DNA of 20,355 nt, taken from positions 1 to 20,355 of the forward strand of contig JACRIR010000068.1 of assembly GCA_016215705.1 (NCBI GenBank), in the 5' to 3' direction. The notes beneath the pieces are model-generated. The model was not told the origin of the DNA and made no database searches. It was given only the letters and a program-made list of their open reading frames with translations. Source of the stretch: Candidatus Poribacteria bacterium. Its GTDB lineage: Bacteria; Abyssobacteria; SURF-5. Shown here piece by piece: positions 3,218 through 18,788 of the stretch (within the stretch, counting starts at the first letter, position 1; every line of letters begins with the position of its first letter). The translations under genes and the position numbers were made by a program.

Positions 3218-4678
3218 CTACAAACAAACGTCAATCTCGAATTTGCCTGCCTCCAACAGCGCGCGCACACGCTGAAGGAACTGTATCGAGGTTGCTCCGT
3301 CGACTATGCGGTGGTCATAGGAAAGACACAGGTACATCATGGGACGAATGGCTATGGCGTCGTCCACGACGACTGCGCGTTTCTCGATCTTCTCGGCGCC
3401 GAGTATCGCCGCCTGCGGCTGATTTATTATGGGCGTCGAAAGGATCGCCCCGTACGAGCCGGGATTTGTGATGCTGAACGTGCCCCCTTGAATCTCGTTG
3501 AGCGACAGCCGTCCCTCTCGGGCGCGCCGCGCGAGCGAGTCGACTGCCTTTGCGAGGTCTTCCACGCCGAGCCTGTCAGCGTTGCGAATGACCGGCGTCA
3601 TCAGGCCGCGCTCGGTCTGCACCGATACGCCGACGTGGTAGTATCGTTTCAGGATTATTCTGTCGTCCACGAGTGAGGAGTTGAGATATGGGAACTCCTT
3701 CAACGCCTGGACGGAGGCGGCGATGATGAACGGTAGGAACGTGAGCGAGACACCATATTTCTGGCGGAACGCCTCTTTGTTCTTCTCGCGCAGAGCGCTG
3801 ACCTCCGACATATCCGCCTCGGCGACCGTGGTCACGTGAGGCGACGTGCGCTTGCTCCGAGCCATGTGCTCGGCTATCGCCTTACGCATCCCCTCGAGCG
3901 GAATCACTTCCTCGAGGTCTTCAAGCGCTTGATCAGCGGGTCTCTTGGGTGCGGTTTCTTTTTTCTCCGGTTTCCTCTCTTCTTTGGGCGCAATGAATTG
4001 AGCCCCTACAGGTTTAGGCGCGACCTCGATGCCTTTTTGTCGCCTCGCAACGTAATCAAGAATATCCTCTTTGGTCACGCGCCCGTCAAGTCCGCTTCCC
4101 GTGACATCCGCGAGGTTAACGCCATGTTCTTTGGCCATGCGGCGAACCAGAGGCGAGGATTTCGTTAGTCGCCGCTCGGCCGCCGAGACGATTCCTTCTT
4201 CAGATTCCACAGGTCTTGCGGCCTCTGCCTCCTCAATCCTTTCTTCTTCCGTTTCTCGTTCCTTTGCCTTTTCCCCTTCGAGCGATGGAGCTTTTTTCTC
4301 CGGTTTCCTCTCTTCTTTGGGCGCAATGAATTGAGCCCCTACAACTTTAGACGGGGCCTGTGGCTCTGCAGTTTTGGATGCGGCTTCGGGCCTTTTCTCT
4401 ACCGTTGCAGTCCCAGGTACTTCCGCCACTTTTTCGCCGGGCGCGCTTATGATGGCGAGCAGCCCGCCGACCTTGACTTCTTCACCTTCCTCGGCAAGTT
4501 TCTTTTGAAGAACGCCCGCTGCCGGAGACGGGATTTCGACATTAGCTTTGTCCGTCGCTATTTCGACAAGCGATTCATCGACGGCCACCTGATCGCCAAT
4601 TTCCTTCAGCCACTTCACGATTGTCCCGCTGACAACGGTCTCTCCGATCTGCGGCATAATGACTTCGGTGGGCATCAT
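3218..4678 (-). CDS. 2-oxo acid dehydrogenase E2 (dihydrolipoamide acyltransferase)
   Basis: E2 is the core of the complex: it takes the acyl group from E1 on a lipoyl arm and passes it to CoA. The 486 residues comprise a lipoyl domain (about 3-78, lipoylated Lys44 in ATDKANVE), a long charged linker, a peripheral-subunit-binding domain (about 174-211, SPLVRRMAKEHGVNLADV), a second linker, and the catalytic domain (about 256-486) with SYDHRIVDG (His456, Asp460). Each linker contains the same 17-residue segment VGAQFIAPKEERKPEKK (113-129 and 224-240), encoded by a 53-base exact repeat that includes a dispersed palindrome. Two ATGs are adjacent. AGGAGG (4681-4686) is two bases from the first and five from the second (4673-4675), so translation may begin at the second. 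It lies 194 bases after E1 beta. The acyl group (acetyl or branched-chain) cannot be fixed from sequence. Confidence 0.93.
   Translation of the reverse strand: MMPTEVIMPQIGETVVSGTIVKWLKEIGDQVAVDESLVEIATDKANVEIPSPAAGVLQKKLAEEGEEVKVGGLLAIISAPGEKVAEVPGTATVEKRPEAASKTAEPQAPSKVVGAQFIAPKEERKPEKKAPSLEGEKAKERETEEERIEEAEAARPVESEEGIVSAAERRLTKSSPLVRRMAKEHGVNLADVTGSGLDGRVTKEDILDYVARRQKGIEVAPKPVGAQFIAPKEERKPEKKETAPKRPADQALEDLEEVIPLEGMRKAIAEHMARSKRTSPHVTTVAEADMSEVSALREKNKEAFRQKYGVSLTFLPFIIAASVQALKEFPYLNSSLVDDRIILKRYYHVGVSVQTERGLMTPVIRNADRLGVEDLAKAVDSLARRAREGRLSLNEIQGGTFSITNPGSYGAILSTPIINQPQAAILGAEKIEKRAVVVDDAIAIRPMMYLCLSYDHRIVDGATSIQFLQRVRALLEAGKFEIDVCL
3958..4010 (-). repeat. 53-bp exact direct repeat, copy 1, in the second E2 linker
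   Basis: This copy is identical base for base to 4291-4343. Positions 3985-4010 are the dispersed palindrome (GGGCGCAATGAATTGAGCCCC type) and 3958-3984 are purine/pyrimidine-biased linker sequence. On the minus strand it encodes VGAQFIAPKEERKPEKK, E2 residues 224-240, between the subunit-binding and catalytic domains. Confidence 0.9.
4291..4343 (-). repeat. 53-bp exact direct repeat, copy 2, in the first E2 linker
   Basis: The second copy lies exactly 333 bases from the first in the same reading frame and encodes E2 residues 113-129, between the lipoyl and subunit-binding domains. Both copies carry the same variant (GAGCCCC where other copies in the window have GCGCCCC). That suggests one insertion later duplicated, or homogenised by gene conversion. 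Confidence 0.9.
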
Positions 4679-4774: not shown

Positions 4775-4865
4775 GGGGTCGGGCCTACACAATTGGCAAG
4801 TGGATTTTTCTGCCAGGAGCATTCTCGTGTCGTGATTCGGATTGTCATTGTGTAGACCTGACCCC
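4775..4865. repeat. GGGGTC-type inverted-repeat element, copy 1 (91 bp), between E1 beta and E2
   Basis: The left end GGGGTCGGGCCTACACAATT is matched by the reverse complement of the right end (GGGGTCAGGTCTACACAATG), giving terminal inverted repeats of about 24 bases around a roughly 40-base centre. It ends seven bases downstream of the E1 beta stop codon (4873-4875) in transcription order. Its ends match those of the element at 5877-5966, but the centres differ. It is too short to encode a transposase, so it is a MITE-like or REP-like element. No clear target-site duplication is visible. Confidence 0.8.
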
Positions 4866-4872
4866 TCCTGTA

Positions 4873-5853
4873 TTAATACTCGATTACACGGTGGACGGCG
4901 TCGATAACATCCTGCTCGTTGGGCAGATAGAATTCTTCTAGTGGCGGGCTGTACGGAATGGGCGTGTCCGGCGCCGCCACCCGAATGATTGGCGTATCGA
5001 GATACTCAAACAACTCTTCTGACAGCAGCGCCGCGATTTCGGCGCCGATGCCGAGTGTCTTATGGTCCTCATAAGCGAGTATGACACGGTTGGTCTTTTT
5101 GACCGAATCGTAGATTGTGCTTTTGTCGAGCGGCATGATCGAGCGAAGATCGATAAGCTCGATTGAAAGGTCTTCGGCTTCGAGTTTGTCGATTGCACTC
5201 CGGCAATGGAATACCATCGAGCCATAGGTGATTATGGTAACGTCGCCGCCTTCCTTAAGAATCTTCGCCTTGCCAAGCGGGACAATATAGTCTTCTTCGG
5301 GCAGGTTTTCTTTGGCGCGGCGGTAGAGGAATTTCGGCTCGAAGAATATGACCGGGTCATCGTCGCGGATGGCCGCCTTCAGGAGTCCCTTTGCATCGTA
5401 GGCGGATGAGGGGACCACGACTTTGAGGCCGGGGGTATGCGCAAACCACGCCTCCGGACTCTGTGAATGATAGAGGCCGCCGTGCACGCCGGCCGCCGAG
5501 GGCGCGCGAACAACGAGAGGAGCGGGCATTTCACCGCCGGTCCGGTATCGCAGTGTCGCAGTCTGATTGACTATCTGGTCGAATCCGCAAGTTATGAAAT
5601 CGGCGAACTGTATTTCTGCAATTGGCCTGTATCCCATAATGGCCATGCCAAGGGCAGCGCCTACTATCGCGGATTCGGAAATCGGAGTATCGATCACTCG
5701 GTTCGGCCCAAATTCGTCGTATAGTCCTTCGGTCGCGCGGAATGCGCCGCCATAGATTCCGACATCTTCGCCGAGCACAAGCACGGACTCGTCGCGCTCC
5801 ATTTCCTCTTTCATCGCGAGGCGAATCGCCTCCAGCATAGTTATCTCGGGCAT
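4873..5853 (-). CDS. 2-oxo acid dehydrogenase E1 subunit beta
   Basis: The 326-residue protein has the normal length for a separate E1 beta subunit. With E1 alpha it forms the thiamine-diphosphate-dependent decarboxylase that loads the E2 lipoyl arm. Family features are GEDVGIYGGAFRAT near the N-terminus, DTPISESAIVGAALGMA, AEIQFADF, the active-site His region YHSQSPEAWFAHTPGLKVVVP, YDAKGLLKAAIRDDDPVIFFEPK, and the C-terminal transketolase domain (from about residue 190) with LIDLRSIMPLD. The HSQSPEA..HTPGLKVV and FFEPK.LYR segments resemble branched-chain 2-oxo acid dehydrogenase more than classical pyruvate dehydrogenase, so the substrate is open. It starts 41 bases after the E1 alpha stop. 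GGGGAG is about 15 bases before the ATG, rather far. Confidence 0.92.
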   Translation of the reverse strand: MPEITMLEAIRLAMKEEMERDESVLVLGEDVGIYGGAFRATEGLYDEFGPNRVIDTPISESAIVGAALGMAIMGYRPIAEIQFADFITCGFDQIVNQTATLRYRTGGEMPAPLVVRAPSAAGVHGGLYHSQSPEAWFAHTPGLKVVVPSSAYDAKGLLKAAIRDDDPVIFFEPKFLYRRAKENLPEEDYIVPLGKAKILKEGGDVTIITYGSMVFHCRSAIDKLEAEDLSIELIDLRSIMPLDKSTIYDSVKKTNRVILAYEDHKTLGIGAEIAALLSEELFEYLDTPIIRVAAPDTPIPYSPPLEEFYLPNEQDVIDAVHRVIEY

Positions 5854-5876
5854 GCGGCAATTCCAATCTCCCCAAA

Positions 5877-5966
5877 GGGGTCACGTCTACATATTTACAA
5901 ATTAGTTTCTCCACTGACGACAGGTTTTTGTCTCGATTCAATTGTCAAGTGTGTAGACCTGACCCC
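5877..5966. repeat. GGGGTC-type inverted-repeat element, copy 2 (90 bp), overlapping the 3' end of E1 alpha
   Basis: It begins GGGGTCACGTCTACATATTT, and its other end read in reverse is GGGGTCAGGTCTACACACTT, so the terminal inverted repeats match those of copy 1. The element holds the last 23 sense codons and the stop codon (5895-5897) of E1 alpha. It also occupies part of the 41-base gap before E1 beta. Confidence 0.8.
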
Positions 5967-6941
5967 TTCGTCGGGGGCAAACACGTCTTCAAGCGCGCTC
6001 TCACCCGGCGGGAAGGGGCTATCGAGCGCGAACTGCGCCGCCTCGTCGAGTATGGCGGAAATGCGCTTGAGCATCTCTTCTTCCTCTGACTCGCCGAAGC
6101 CGGCTTTTTCCGTAAGAAACCCCTTGAAGCGCGTGATCGGGTCCTTTTTTTTCCACTCCTGTTTTTCGGCTTCGGGCTGGTATTTAGCTTCGTCGTGTTC
6201 CGAGTGACCCCGGATGCGATAAGTCATACACTCAATGAGTGTCGGACCGCCTCCGGCGCGGGCACGTTCAACGGCTATCTGCATAGCGTCATAGACCGCG
6301 AGCACGTCGTTGCCGTCGACGAGCAGCCCCTGGAACCCGTACGATTCAGCGCGGTATGATACGCAACAGATCGCCATTTCTTTTTCAACCGGCGTCGAGT
6401 AGGCATATTTGTTATTTTCGCATATGAGCACAAGGGGGACCTTATGGATGCCGGCAAAATTGCAGCCTTCATGGAAATCGCCCCGGTTCGAGCCTCCCTC
6501 GCCGAAGTAGCTAACGGCAACGCTGTCCTTGCCGCGCAGTTTGAATGTGAACGCCACACCTGCGGCGATCGGGATTGTGGAAGCGAGAATACTGGTGGGT
6601 GGGATTATTCCGAGCTTTTTGCTGCCGGCGTGTAGAAACGAGTCGCGCCCCTTCGAGGGGCCGGTCGCCTTGCCGAGTATCTGGGCCATGAGTATCTTTG
6701 GGTCCATTCCTTTGATAAGAAACGCACCCAGATCGCGATGGATGGGCGAGATGACGTCGTCGTCTCTCAAGTGTGCGCATGTGCCGGCCGGAATGGCTTC
6801 CTGGCCGGTCGAAAGAAAGATGCCGCCAAAGATTTTCCCCTGTCTATAGAGCTTCGAGAGTCGATCCTCGAACTGTCGAGTCAACAGCATATTGTAGTAG
6901 AGATTGAACAGCTTGTCTTTCGGGAGGTCCTTCGCGGCCAT
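5895..6941 (-). CDS. 2-oxo acid dehydrogenase E1 subunit alpha
   Basis: This 348-residue thiamine-diphosphate-binding subunit is the first gene of the leftward cluster. It shows STGQEAIPAG (44-53), PIHRDLGAFL (66-75), the ThDP/Mg motif beginning GEGGSNRGDFHEG (147-159) and ending ENN (175-177), and the active-site loop RGHSEHDEAKYQ (244-255, His246). The catalytic protein appears to end near Asp324-Glu325. Residues 326-348 are encoded entirely by the repeat element at 5877-5966 and look like a read-through tail rather than family sequence. CAGGAA lies about 11-15 bases before the ATG. Operon order is E1 alpha, E1 beta, E2, dehydrogenase. E3 is absent and must be supplied from elsewhere. Substrate is pyruvate, acetoin or branched-chain 2-oxo acids; sequence alone does not decide. 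Confidence 0.92.
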   Translation of the reverse strand: MAAKDLPKDKLFNLYYNMLLTRQFEDRLSKLYRQGKIFGGIFLSTGQEAIPAGTCAHLRDDDVISPIHRDLGAFLIKGMDPKILMAQILGKATGPSKGRDSFLHAGSKKLGIIPPTSILASTIPIAAGVAFTFKLRGKDSVAVSYFGEGGSNRGDFHEGCNFAGIHKVPLVLICENNKYAYSTPVEKEMAICCVSYRAESYGFQGLLVDGNDVLAVYDAMQIAVERARAGGGPTLIECMTYRIRGHSEHDEAKYQPEAEKQEWKKKDPITRFKGFLTEKAGFGESEEEEMLKRISAILDEAAQFALDSPFPPGESALEDVFAPDEGVRSTHLTIESRQKPVVSGETNL

Positions 6942-16442: not shown

Positions 16443-16467
16443 GGGCGCGATGAATCGCGCCCCTACA
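16443..16467 (-). repeat. Palindromic element (GGGCGC..GCGCCCC type), intergenic copy 1
   Basis: GGGCGCGATGAATCGCGCCC followed by CTACA is a near-perfect palindrome of the same family as the elements inside E2 and the 693-residue protein. Its orientation (ending CCCCTACA on the plus strand) is opposite to that of the copy at 16544-16570. Confidence 0.8.
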
Positions 16468-16491
16468 GCGTTTCTTTGCTCGCGCCTCGGG

Positions 16492-16530
16492 AAAATCGGG
16501 GACACGATGTGGCATCATGTCTCCGATTTT
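16492..16530. repeat. Long hairpin element with 18-bp arms
   Basis: AAAATCGGGGACACGATG (16492-16509) and CATCATGTCTCCGATTTT (16513-16530) are inverted repeats with two mismatches and a 3-base loop. The AAATCGGGGACA end resembles REP-type elements that accompany REP-associated tyrosine transposases, but no such gene is present. The hairpin sits between two oppositely oriented copies of the GGGCGC palindrome. It could also fold in RNA. Confidence 0.75.
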
Positions 16531-16543
16531 CTTCATTTTTGTC

Positions 16544-16570
16544 TGCAGGGGCGCAATTCATTGCGCCTAT
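16544..16570 (+). repeat. Palindromic element (GGGCGC..GCGCCCC type), intergenic copy 2
   Basis: TGCAGGGGCGCAATTCATTG followed by CGCCTAT is the same element as 16443-16467 in inverted orientation. The two flank the 16492-16530 hairpin and form a symmetrical compound structure of about 128 bases. Confidence 0.8.
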
Positions 16571-16706: not shown

Positions 16707-18788
16707 ATGAAGCCCGAGGAGTTCGATTTCGTAGCATTCAATAGCACGAACCTGCCGGATGGGTATCCGTCCAGGTTTTCTGCCGATTCCTACGTCAGCG
16801 AGCCATTCTCCCCAGCTTATGATGATAGAAGAAAGGCGTGTCTCGAATTCTTTTCCAGGAACCCGGCCCGGCCGACAGTCAAAGGGTTCATATACGAGTT
16901 AGCGCGGCTTGCAACATCAGCGGGAAACATCAATTGGTATGCGATAGAAGGAGCGCTCACATATGTCGAGCAGAGAATAGACTGCGCCGATTTCGTGCTG
17001 CTGGGAATCTTGAGGCTGGTTTTCCAGTTCGGACAACACGGGATGCGCCCTAGGAGAGTTTCACAGAACCACGAGGGCGCAATGAATTGCGCCCCTACTG
17101 ACAGCAGTGAAAAAAAGATTCCCGATCGCATTGTGCGGCGGGCCAGGGACGTGATGCTCGGCTTCAAATACTGGCCGGATGAGCCGGGTCAGGATTCCAT
17201 GTGCACGTGGACGGAGAACCATCAAGTGATATTTTCCACGTGCGAGTATCTCGCCGGAATGCTCTTCCCGGATGAGACTTTCAGGAACTCGGGCGCGACC
17301 GGGCGGGAAAAAACGAAAAGAGCGCGTCGTCGATTGCTGAAATGGATGGAATTGAGATTCCGGACGGGTTTCAACGAATGGCTCTCCAACGTCTATTATG
17401 ATGAGGATATCGCTGCGCTTGTGACGCTGGCCGATTTCTGCGATGATCCGCTGCTCGTGCGAGGAGCGCGGTGCGCACTGGACCTCCTCTTCTACGACAT
17501 GAGCCTCAACTCTTTCAAGGGCACATTTGGCTGCACGCATGGTCGCAGTTACGAGCGCGAAAAGAAGTCAGGCCTCGAGGAATCGACCGCCGACACCCAA
17601 AAACTCATGTTCGGGATGGGGGTATTCGGAAGCGAGGACAGCATGAGCGCCGTCCATCTGGCGCTGAGCCGGAACTACCGCCTCCCGAAGGTCATCTACG
17701 ACATCGCTTCCGATTATTCAAAACAGGAGATGACAAGCAAGCAACGAGCAGGCATTCGAATAGCCGAAGCGCCACGGTGGGGACTTGGCTTCGAGGGTCT
17801 CGATGACGGGATGACGCTCCTGAGCTTCGAGGCGTATGTTCATCCGAAAACCTTTGCTCTCTTCATCAGGCTGCTCGAGGCGTATCGGTGGTGGGACAAC
17901 GAGTTCTTTGTTGCCTTCAAAAAGATGAGAAAAATGCTGACGATGTTGCGTGAGATAAGCATGACGAGGCCGGTCGCATGGCTCTTGAGAAAAGACGTCT
18001 CACGAAATATGCGCGAGGAAGTTCACACGGTCACTTATAAAACGCCGGACTACATGTTGAGCGCCGCGCTGGACTACAGGAAGGGTTTCGGTGGCGACCA
18101 GCAACATGTCTGGCAGGCGACGTTGTCGGAGGAAGCGGTTTGCTTCACGACTCACCCGGGCTCGTTTGCGGAGCGCTCGCCGGACTACTGGACCGGCTCC
18201 GGCTTTCTCCCGAGGGTTGCGATGCACAAGAACGTGCTTGTGGCTGTCTATCGCATCTCTTCGATGCCCGGGCTCTACATGCGCAACAAGCACGACTTCA
18301 CGCATGCATACTTTCCGAAGAGCAAATTCGATGAAGTAGCCGAGAAAAACGGATGGGTGTTCGGTCGAAAGGATAGAGGCTACATCGCGCTGTATTCACG
18401 GAACAAATATTATTGGCAAAAGGAGGGAACGGATCGGGAGGCCGAGATAATTGCGGCAGGCAAAGAAAACATCTGGCTCTGCGAGATGGGCCGTGAAGAG
18501 ACATCCGGAGGATTTTCCGATTTTCAGAAGTCCGTCGCAGCGGCAGAACTTTCCTTCAACGGACTGGGAGTCCAATACCACTCGCCGTCGGTCGGGGCTG
18601 TCGAATTCGGGTGGAGCGGCAACTTCCTCGTCGCCGAAGAGGAGATTCCCTTGCGAAACTGCCTACGCTACGACAATCCCTACTCACAGACCGCTTTCGA
18701 CCCGAAAGTGGTCGAAATCCGGAAAGACAGCGAATGGCTGCGTCTCGAGCTCGACAATTTGGAACGCTCGTGCAGTTCGACGGTATGA
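16707..18788 (+). CDS. Uncharacterised 693-residue protein, possibly carbohydrate-active
   Basis: I do not recognise a named family. The preferred start is the ATG at 16707-16709, which has AAGGAT about eight bases upstream; the in-frame ATG at 16593 adds 38 residues of repeat-adjacent, unconvincing sequence. There is no signal peptide and no obvious membrane helix. The first two thirds look helical with regularly spaced aromatic residues (GFIYELARLATSAGNINWYAIE, FNEWLSNVYYDEDIAALVTLADF). The last third is richer in beta-type sequence and holds DYMLSAALDYRKGFGGDQQH (about 448-467) followed by HVWQATL. A helical toroid plus beta domain, as in heparinase-like lyases, would fit but is only inference. 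A dispersed palindrome contributes residues of about 123-132 (GAMNCAPT). A weak hairpin follows the stop. Confidence 0.75.
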   Translation: MKPEEFDFVAFNSTNLPDGYPSRFSADSYVSEPFSPAYDDRRKACLEFFSRNPARPTVKGFIYELARLATSAGNINWYAIEGALTYVEQRIDCADFVLLGILRLVFQFGQHGMRPRRVSQNHEGAMNCAPTDSSEKKIPDRIVRRARDVMLGFKYWPDEPGQDSMCTWTENHQVIFSTCEYLAGMLFPDETFRNSGATGREKTKRARRRLLKWMELRFRTGFNEWLSNVYYDEDIAALVTLADFCDDPLLVRGARCALDLLFYDMSLNSFKGTFGCTHGRSYEREKKSGLEESTADTQKLMFGMGVFGSEDSMSAVHLALSRNYRLPKVIYDIASDYSKQEMTSKQRAGIRIAEAPRWGLGFEGLDDGMTLLSFEAYVHPKTFALFIRLLEAYRWWDNEFFVAFKKMRKMLTMLREISMTRPVAWLLRKDVSRNMREEVHTVTYKTPDYMLSAALDYRKGFGGDQQHVWQATLSEEAVCFTTHPGSFAERSPDYWTGSGFLPRVAMHKNVLVAVYRISSMPGLYMRNKHDFTHAYFPKSKFDEVAEKNGWVFGRKDRGYIALYSRNKYYWQKEGTDREAEIIAAGKENIWLCEMGREETSGGFSDFQKSVAAAELSFNGLGVQYHSPSVGAVEFGWSGNFLVAEEEIPLRNCLRYDNPYSQTAFDPKVVEIRKDSEWLRLELDNLERSCSSTV
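17075..17099 (+). repeat. Palindromic element inside the 693-residue protein gene
   Basis: GGGCGCAATGAATTGCGCCC plus CTACT matches the intergenic copies and the E2 copies. It is read in frame as GAMNCAPT from the strand opposite to the one read in E2. The flanking coding sequence stays open on both sides. Confidence 0.85.

Follow-up and report, generated by a model that had tools for sequence, protein, structure and literature searches.

A GTAG-type REP hairpin very probably inserted once, in frame, into an E2 gene and then copied into a second linker

Both linkers of the dihydrolipoyl acyltransferase (E2) encoded in a 20,355-nucleotide stretch of DNA from Candidatus Poribacteria bacterium (contig JACRIR010000068.1; hereafter the window) were found to carry the peptide VGAQFIAP, read from the same 24 nt. 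Very probably, this sequence is a GTAG-type REP of the RAYT/TnpA-REP kind which entered the E2 gene by one in-frame insertion and was then copied to the second linker.

Results

The E2 gene (3218-4678, minus strand, 486 aa) has the normal architecture of a three-domain dihydrolipoyl acyltransferase, with the lipoyl domain (residues 5-77), linker 1, the E3-binding domain (173-207), linker 2 and the catalytic domain (256-477) with its YDHRIVDG motif in that order. As reported in the initial annotation, the linkers on either side of the E3-binding domain each contain a dispersed palindrome whose in-frame reading is VGAQFIAP: the 24-mer GTAGGGGCTCAATTCATTGCGCCC is located on the minus strand at 4319-4342 in linker 1 (residues 113-120) and an identical copy lies on the same strand at 3986-4009 in linker 2 (residues 224-231), the former being probably the original insertion and the latter its duplicate. 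In an AlphaFold2 model built from a shallow alignment of six sequences, pLDDT is below 50 over residues 82-170 and 217-244; both copies fall in these stretches, as would fit disordered linkers. Upstream of E2, the genes at 4873-5853 and 5895-6941 look like putative E1 beta and E1 alpha subunits, respectively. Inverted repeats of the form GGGGTC...GTGTAGACCTGACCCC flank the E1 beta gene (4775-4865 and 5875-5968) and represent a second repeat family, unrelated to the REP.

The interval 3958-4343, to which the element had first been assigned, does span two identical 53-nt blocks on the minus strand, at 4291-4343 in linker 1 and 3958-4010 in linker 2, but only 24 nt of each are the element, the remaining 29 nt being the codons of KEERKPEKK. 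Likewise, two 24-mers are present as described but are imperfect palindromes, in which a G-to-T change mispairs the stem. The predicted RNA folding energy of the E2 copy is consequently nearly halved, at -7.5 kcal/mol versus -13.3 kcal/mol for the consensus. Since the shared change breaks a stem pair and weakens folding to this extent, the E2 copies may by now be poor transposase substrates. The variant GGGGCTCAATTC is present in only 3 of the 206 REP copies found in 1.94 Mb of the genome, two of which are those of E2, and both E2 copies are single 24-mers without the flanks typical of paired copies. Because the 53-nt blocks are identical and the rare substitution is common to both, the double copy is best explained, as judged from the sequences, by a single insertion, the block having afterwards been duplicated or converted; a reading of the two linkers as two separate targets is not supported.

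The direction of this copying was considered in relation to the E2 of genome G002, from the same family, whose linker 1 resembles the KEER of linker 1. Removal of the 17-residue segment made the alignment worse for linker 1 and slightly better for linker 2, although in either linker the alignment scores shifted only slightly on removal of 8 or 17 residues. The KEER resemblance and the different effects of these deletions weakly suggest that linker 1 is probably the source of the duplicated block.

The REP unit is a near-invariant 24-mer (GTAGGGGCGCAATTCATTGCGCCC as a single strand) that starts with GTAG and folds into an 8-bp stem and a 4-nt loop. In the host genome assembly (5.47 Mb, 270 contigs, 92% complete), 252 matches to GTAGGGGCGCAATTCATTGCGCC were obtained at up to 3 mismatches, whereas the reversed control gave none in the same 5.47 Mb. 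Within the first 1.23 Mb, 81 copies have the unit without change, and two versions, ...GCAATTCATTGC... and ...GCGATTCATCGC..., occur side by side in the genome. Five copies were found in the window at up to 3 mismatches as compared to 0.00 expected from shuffles. The earlier statement that four of six frames are open was borne out for the consensus 24-mer, which reads VGAQFIAP, RGAIHCA, GRNELRPY and GAMNCAPT, with TAG or TGA in the other two frames. Pairing is the rule among the copies, with 69 inverted pairs counted, 49 of them with a 21-nt spacer and often with a conserved tail; in all 69 the GTAG ends face inward. Some copies are single 24-mers lacking the pair flanks. A 24-nt hairpin with GTAG at one end, within the 20-40 bp of such palindromes, together with high copy number, mainly extragenic location and frequent inverted pairs, is the reason for which the element is classified, by its sequence features, as a GTAG-type REP. 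MITEs, with their 70-300 bp and terminal inverted repeats of 15-30 bp, were considered and do not describe the single 24-mers of E2; intergenic pairs that have a conserved tail may count as MITE candidates. Neither the REP sequence nor VGARHASP had a relevant match in a search of literature text.

The genomic distribution of the copies was determined in 1.94 Mb of the 5.47 Mb genome, in stretches mostly picked around REPs. Genes were called there by a simple home-made model based on hexamers, which gave 1442 genes and a coding share of 80%. The initial annotation had presented a protein-coding element; here 196 of 206 copies are intergenic, 3 overlap gene edges and only 7 lie inside genes, although 80% of this DNA is coding (binomial p about 3e-127). 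The element is strongly excluded from genes, given a density of 0.51 copies per kb outside them, about 110 times the 0.0045 per kb within them. Two of the seven intragenic copies are those of E2, one lies in the gene at 16707-18788, two form a REP pair inside a multi-domain glycosyltransferase/TPR protein (locus L241, contig C186) and two lie no more than 12 codons from the end of predicted ORFs, leaving five internal copies spread over three genes. The expectation of in-frame copies in other proteins thus holds for at least two more, the 693-aa product of 16707-18788 and the glycosyltransferase/TPR protein. That open frames aid survival inside genes is compatible with these data, with about three genes with internal copies known. 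The window is unusual in holding two genes with internal copies. Its other copies, located by pattern search, are an intergenic variant GTAGGGGCGCGATTCATCGCGCCC (16443-16466, minus strand), a degenerate intergenic copy GCAGGGGCGCAATTCATTGCGCCT facing it (16545-16568, plus strand) and the copy read as GAMNCAPT (17075-17098, minus strand) inside the plus-strand gene 16707-18788, for which orthologues were also compared. A further palindrome, GAAAATCGGGGACACGATG / CATCATGTCTCCGATTTTC, lies at 16491-16531 of the window and, in other parts of the genome, also precedes many REP copies on their upstream side. Stretches L217, L253, L260 and others contain a further REP-like repeat, GTAGGTGCGAATTCATTCGCAC, which often adjoins the REP described here.

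Comparison with orthologues indicated that the peptide was added to E2. The orthologues of the same-family genomes G002 and G001 (72% and 71% identical, respectively) have no VGAQFIAP in either linker, and the peptide was absent from all E2 orthologues aligned, including those of more distant genomes. Alignment to element-free orthologues had been proposed as a means of revealing clean in-frame insertions; such orthologues exist, but the E2 linkers are too diverged among them for a base-exact empty site. Judging from the alignments, the gene at 16707-18788 is a cleaner case than E2, with 24 residues around GAMNCAPT missing from the orthologues of G001 and G036, an in-frame difference of 72 nt. 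This 693-aa protein has no Pfam or NCBIfam match and is conserved in G001 (68%) and G036 (38%). Its 72-nt insert was also considered as a piece of a larger paired element, and the similarity of the flanks was not above that of shuffles. In L241, the copies sit between glycosyltransferase/TPR units: the parts on either side of them match the G002 orthologue separately.

When public genomes were scanned for the exact 24-mer, the matches listed included copies in Nitrospirae, Chloroflexi, Deltaproteobacteria, Acidobacteria, Gallionellales and others. Among the matches listed in other phyla (L092-L195), 63 of 118 exact copies have a downstream partner in GTAG-outward orientation. At no fewer than seven of the loci fetched (at least 7), the REP lies in frame within a HuH transposase gene, a few codons past MPNHxH, and is read as VGAQFIAP in L130, L144, L154, L165 and L141, AGAQFIAP in L161 and IGAQFIAP in L152, the peptide of L154 being some twenty residues further downstream. 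An in-frame REP between the HuH and Tyr motifs was found in L130, L152, L154, L161 and L165, where the inverted partner, read xNxAPT, precedes the presumed catalytic Tyr region, and partially in L144, interrupted by a stop, and L141, cut by a contig end. For the five longer proteins, matches to NF047646 (REP-associated tyrosine transposase) have E-values of 1e-14 to 3e-21 but do not reach its curated cut-off, and the REP-bearing RAYT proteins likewise match Pfam Y1_Tnp only below the curated cut-off. Among the matches listed, the REP-bearing transposases include Nitrospirae and Thermodesulfovibrionales proteins with MPNHxHGI before the 24-mer.

In the host genome itself (92% complete) and in G001, G002 and G040, no RAYT carrying or flanked by the REP was found. 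No REP copy lies near the host's own Y1 transposases L009, L010 and L011 or the fragment L357. L010 and L011 are adjacent, near-identical Y1 transposase genes on contig C28 without flanking REP. RAYT-like genes of the same layout in G001 and G002 hold other insert sequences in the place of the REP. Among 33 right contig ends checked, five have a REP within 120 nt, and further stretches that were fetched start beside one; as contigs often end at REPs, the assembly may have lost a REP-bearing RAYT. Cognate REPtrons are also missing from some REP hosts described previously (PMC3733652).

Discussion

The proposed sequence of events begins with a 24-nt single-strand hairpin that would be spread by a RAYT/TnpA-REP (HuH-Tyr) transposase with the REP inside its own gene and that occupies intergenic gaps of the genome in about 250 copies. 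One solo REP would then have landed in the E2 gene by an insertion of presumably exactly 24 nt, adding VGAQFIAP to a disordered linker without harm, since 24 nt make 8 codons and are open in the frame of landing; such an insertion would be presumably neutral, and the earlier reading of the linkers as permissive places is a sensible one. A segment of at least 53 nt, comprising the REP and the following KEERKPEKK codons, would finally have been duplicated or gene-converted into the other linker, probably from linker 1 to linker 2. It is a tentative and rather doubtful possibility that the REP is translatable because it lies within the frame of its own transposase, where selection would hold the 24-mer to a length divisible by three and keep stops out of it. 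If so, the REP would be at once a DNA hairpin and a harmless peptide, VGAQFIAP read one way and GAxNxAPT the other, and stray copies would be survivable in unrelated proteins, E2 among them.

A dedicated protein-coding palindromic element of the Rickettsia kind, spreading by preference in frame into proteins, would account for the in-frame copies in E2, the 693-aa protein and the glycosyltransferase/TPR protein, as well as for four open frames in a unit divisible by three. It is nevertheless very improbable, being contradicted by an intergenic bias that, in the 1.94 Mb covered, leaves only 7 of 206 copies in predicted genes (p about 3e-127). The Rickettsia elements, to which the initial annotation drew a parallel, share with the present one palindromic repeats lying in frame in unrelated proteins; however, RPE-4 and RPE-6 are CGTC-tagged (PMC3733652), whereas the tag here is GTAG, and many in-frame copies within ORFs are a Rickettsia trait that was not observed, with 196 of 206 copies intergenic. 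That parallel was consequently dropped, the relatives of the element being RAYT-associated GTAG REPs.

Two independent insertions, one per linker and homogenised later by gene conversion, are unlikely, even though linkers tolerate insertions and double REP insertions in one ORF have been reported (PMC3733652), as identity runs 29 nt past the REP, the rare substitution is common to both copies and a single insertion with duplication takes fewer steps. The position of VGAQFIAP in both linkers around the E3-binding domain and its Ala and Pro content, as in E2 linkers, would also be in agreement with a useful motif under selection, for instance in tuning linker stiffness or in subunit binding. This is extremely improbable in view of the absence of the peptide from all aligned E2 orthologues and of the presence of the same DNA about 250 times, almost always in non-coding positions. 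Almost no weight can be given to chance similarity or convergence between linkers, in spite of the low complexity of E2 linkers, since it is already refuted by the zero expectation in window shuffles and the empty reversed control. One insertion of a REP with later copying inside E2 is thus the reading retained.

Under this reading, a core metabolic enzyme took up a transposase-associated hairpin, of which a second copy was later made inside the same protein, providing an example of mobile DNA contributing linker sequence missing from relatives. Both the type of mobile hairpin and intragenic REPs in linkers are known already, and no new class of protein-coding element is involved; the addition made here consists of the internally duplicated E2 case and of a host-protein peptide matching a peptide inside the transposase. 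The in-frame host insertion is tied in this way to a REP in frame in a transposase, the protein compatibility of REPs becomes testable across genomes and the question is raised of whether a coding constraint in the transposase makes the REP tolerable elsewhere.

Among known systems, the 24 families of GTAG-tagged REPs, some of which lie inside ORFs (Di Nocera et al. 2013, PMC3733652), resemble the present element in being palindromes of 20-40 bp with a 5' GTAG, high copy number, mostly intergenic location and inverted pairs, and in having some copies in frame inside ORFs, a likeness judged from their description; they differ in that the double copy of E2 arose from block duplication. Inverted REP pairs dispersed through the genome also recall REPINs (PLoS Genet. 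2011, PMC3116915). In REPINs the pairs are GTAG-outward; the host's own pairs, mostly with 21-nt spacers, are GTAG-inward and the E2 copies single. This inward orientation, in contrast to the mostly outward one of exact copies in other phyla, is a point against the explanation preferred here, as are the failure to find a REP-associated RAYT in the host genome, G001, G002 and G040, the profile matches below cut-off, the divergence of the E2 linkers and the small effect of segment removal on the alignment scores.

In TnpA-REP subclass 2.4, the equivalent of RAYT group 4, REPs occupy a site in the transposase gene that falls between HuH and Tyr, and leave the frame intact (Quentin et al. 2018, PMC6006769), as does the present REP in other phyla. 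Consecutive G-C pairs at the bottom of the stem and a patchy spread across phyla are further common features, although no transposase with the REP was found in the host's own genome. On the basis of this internal REP, the relatives of the element are assigned to the GTAG REPs of RAYT group 4/TnpA-REP subclass 2.4. The GTAG motif matters for cleavage of REPs by TnpA-REP in the systems tested (PMC8266576), and linkers and loops have been suggested to be tolerant places for intragenic REPs (PMC6006769; also PMC3733652). A different REP, read as VGADLRVRP, was noted in a REP-transposase-like ORF (L176:6073-7104), with four in-frame copies after MPNHFHGI and more copies of the same type near the N-terminus. 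Many copies of a sister REP, GTAGTCGCGCAATTCATTGCGCC, were also observed in G040, a genome from another family (194 matches).
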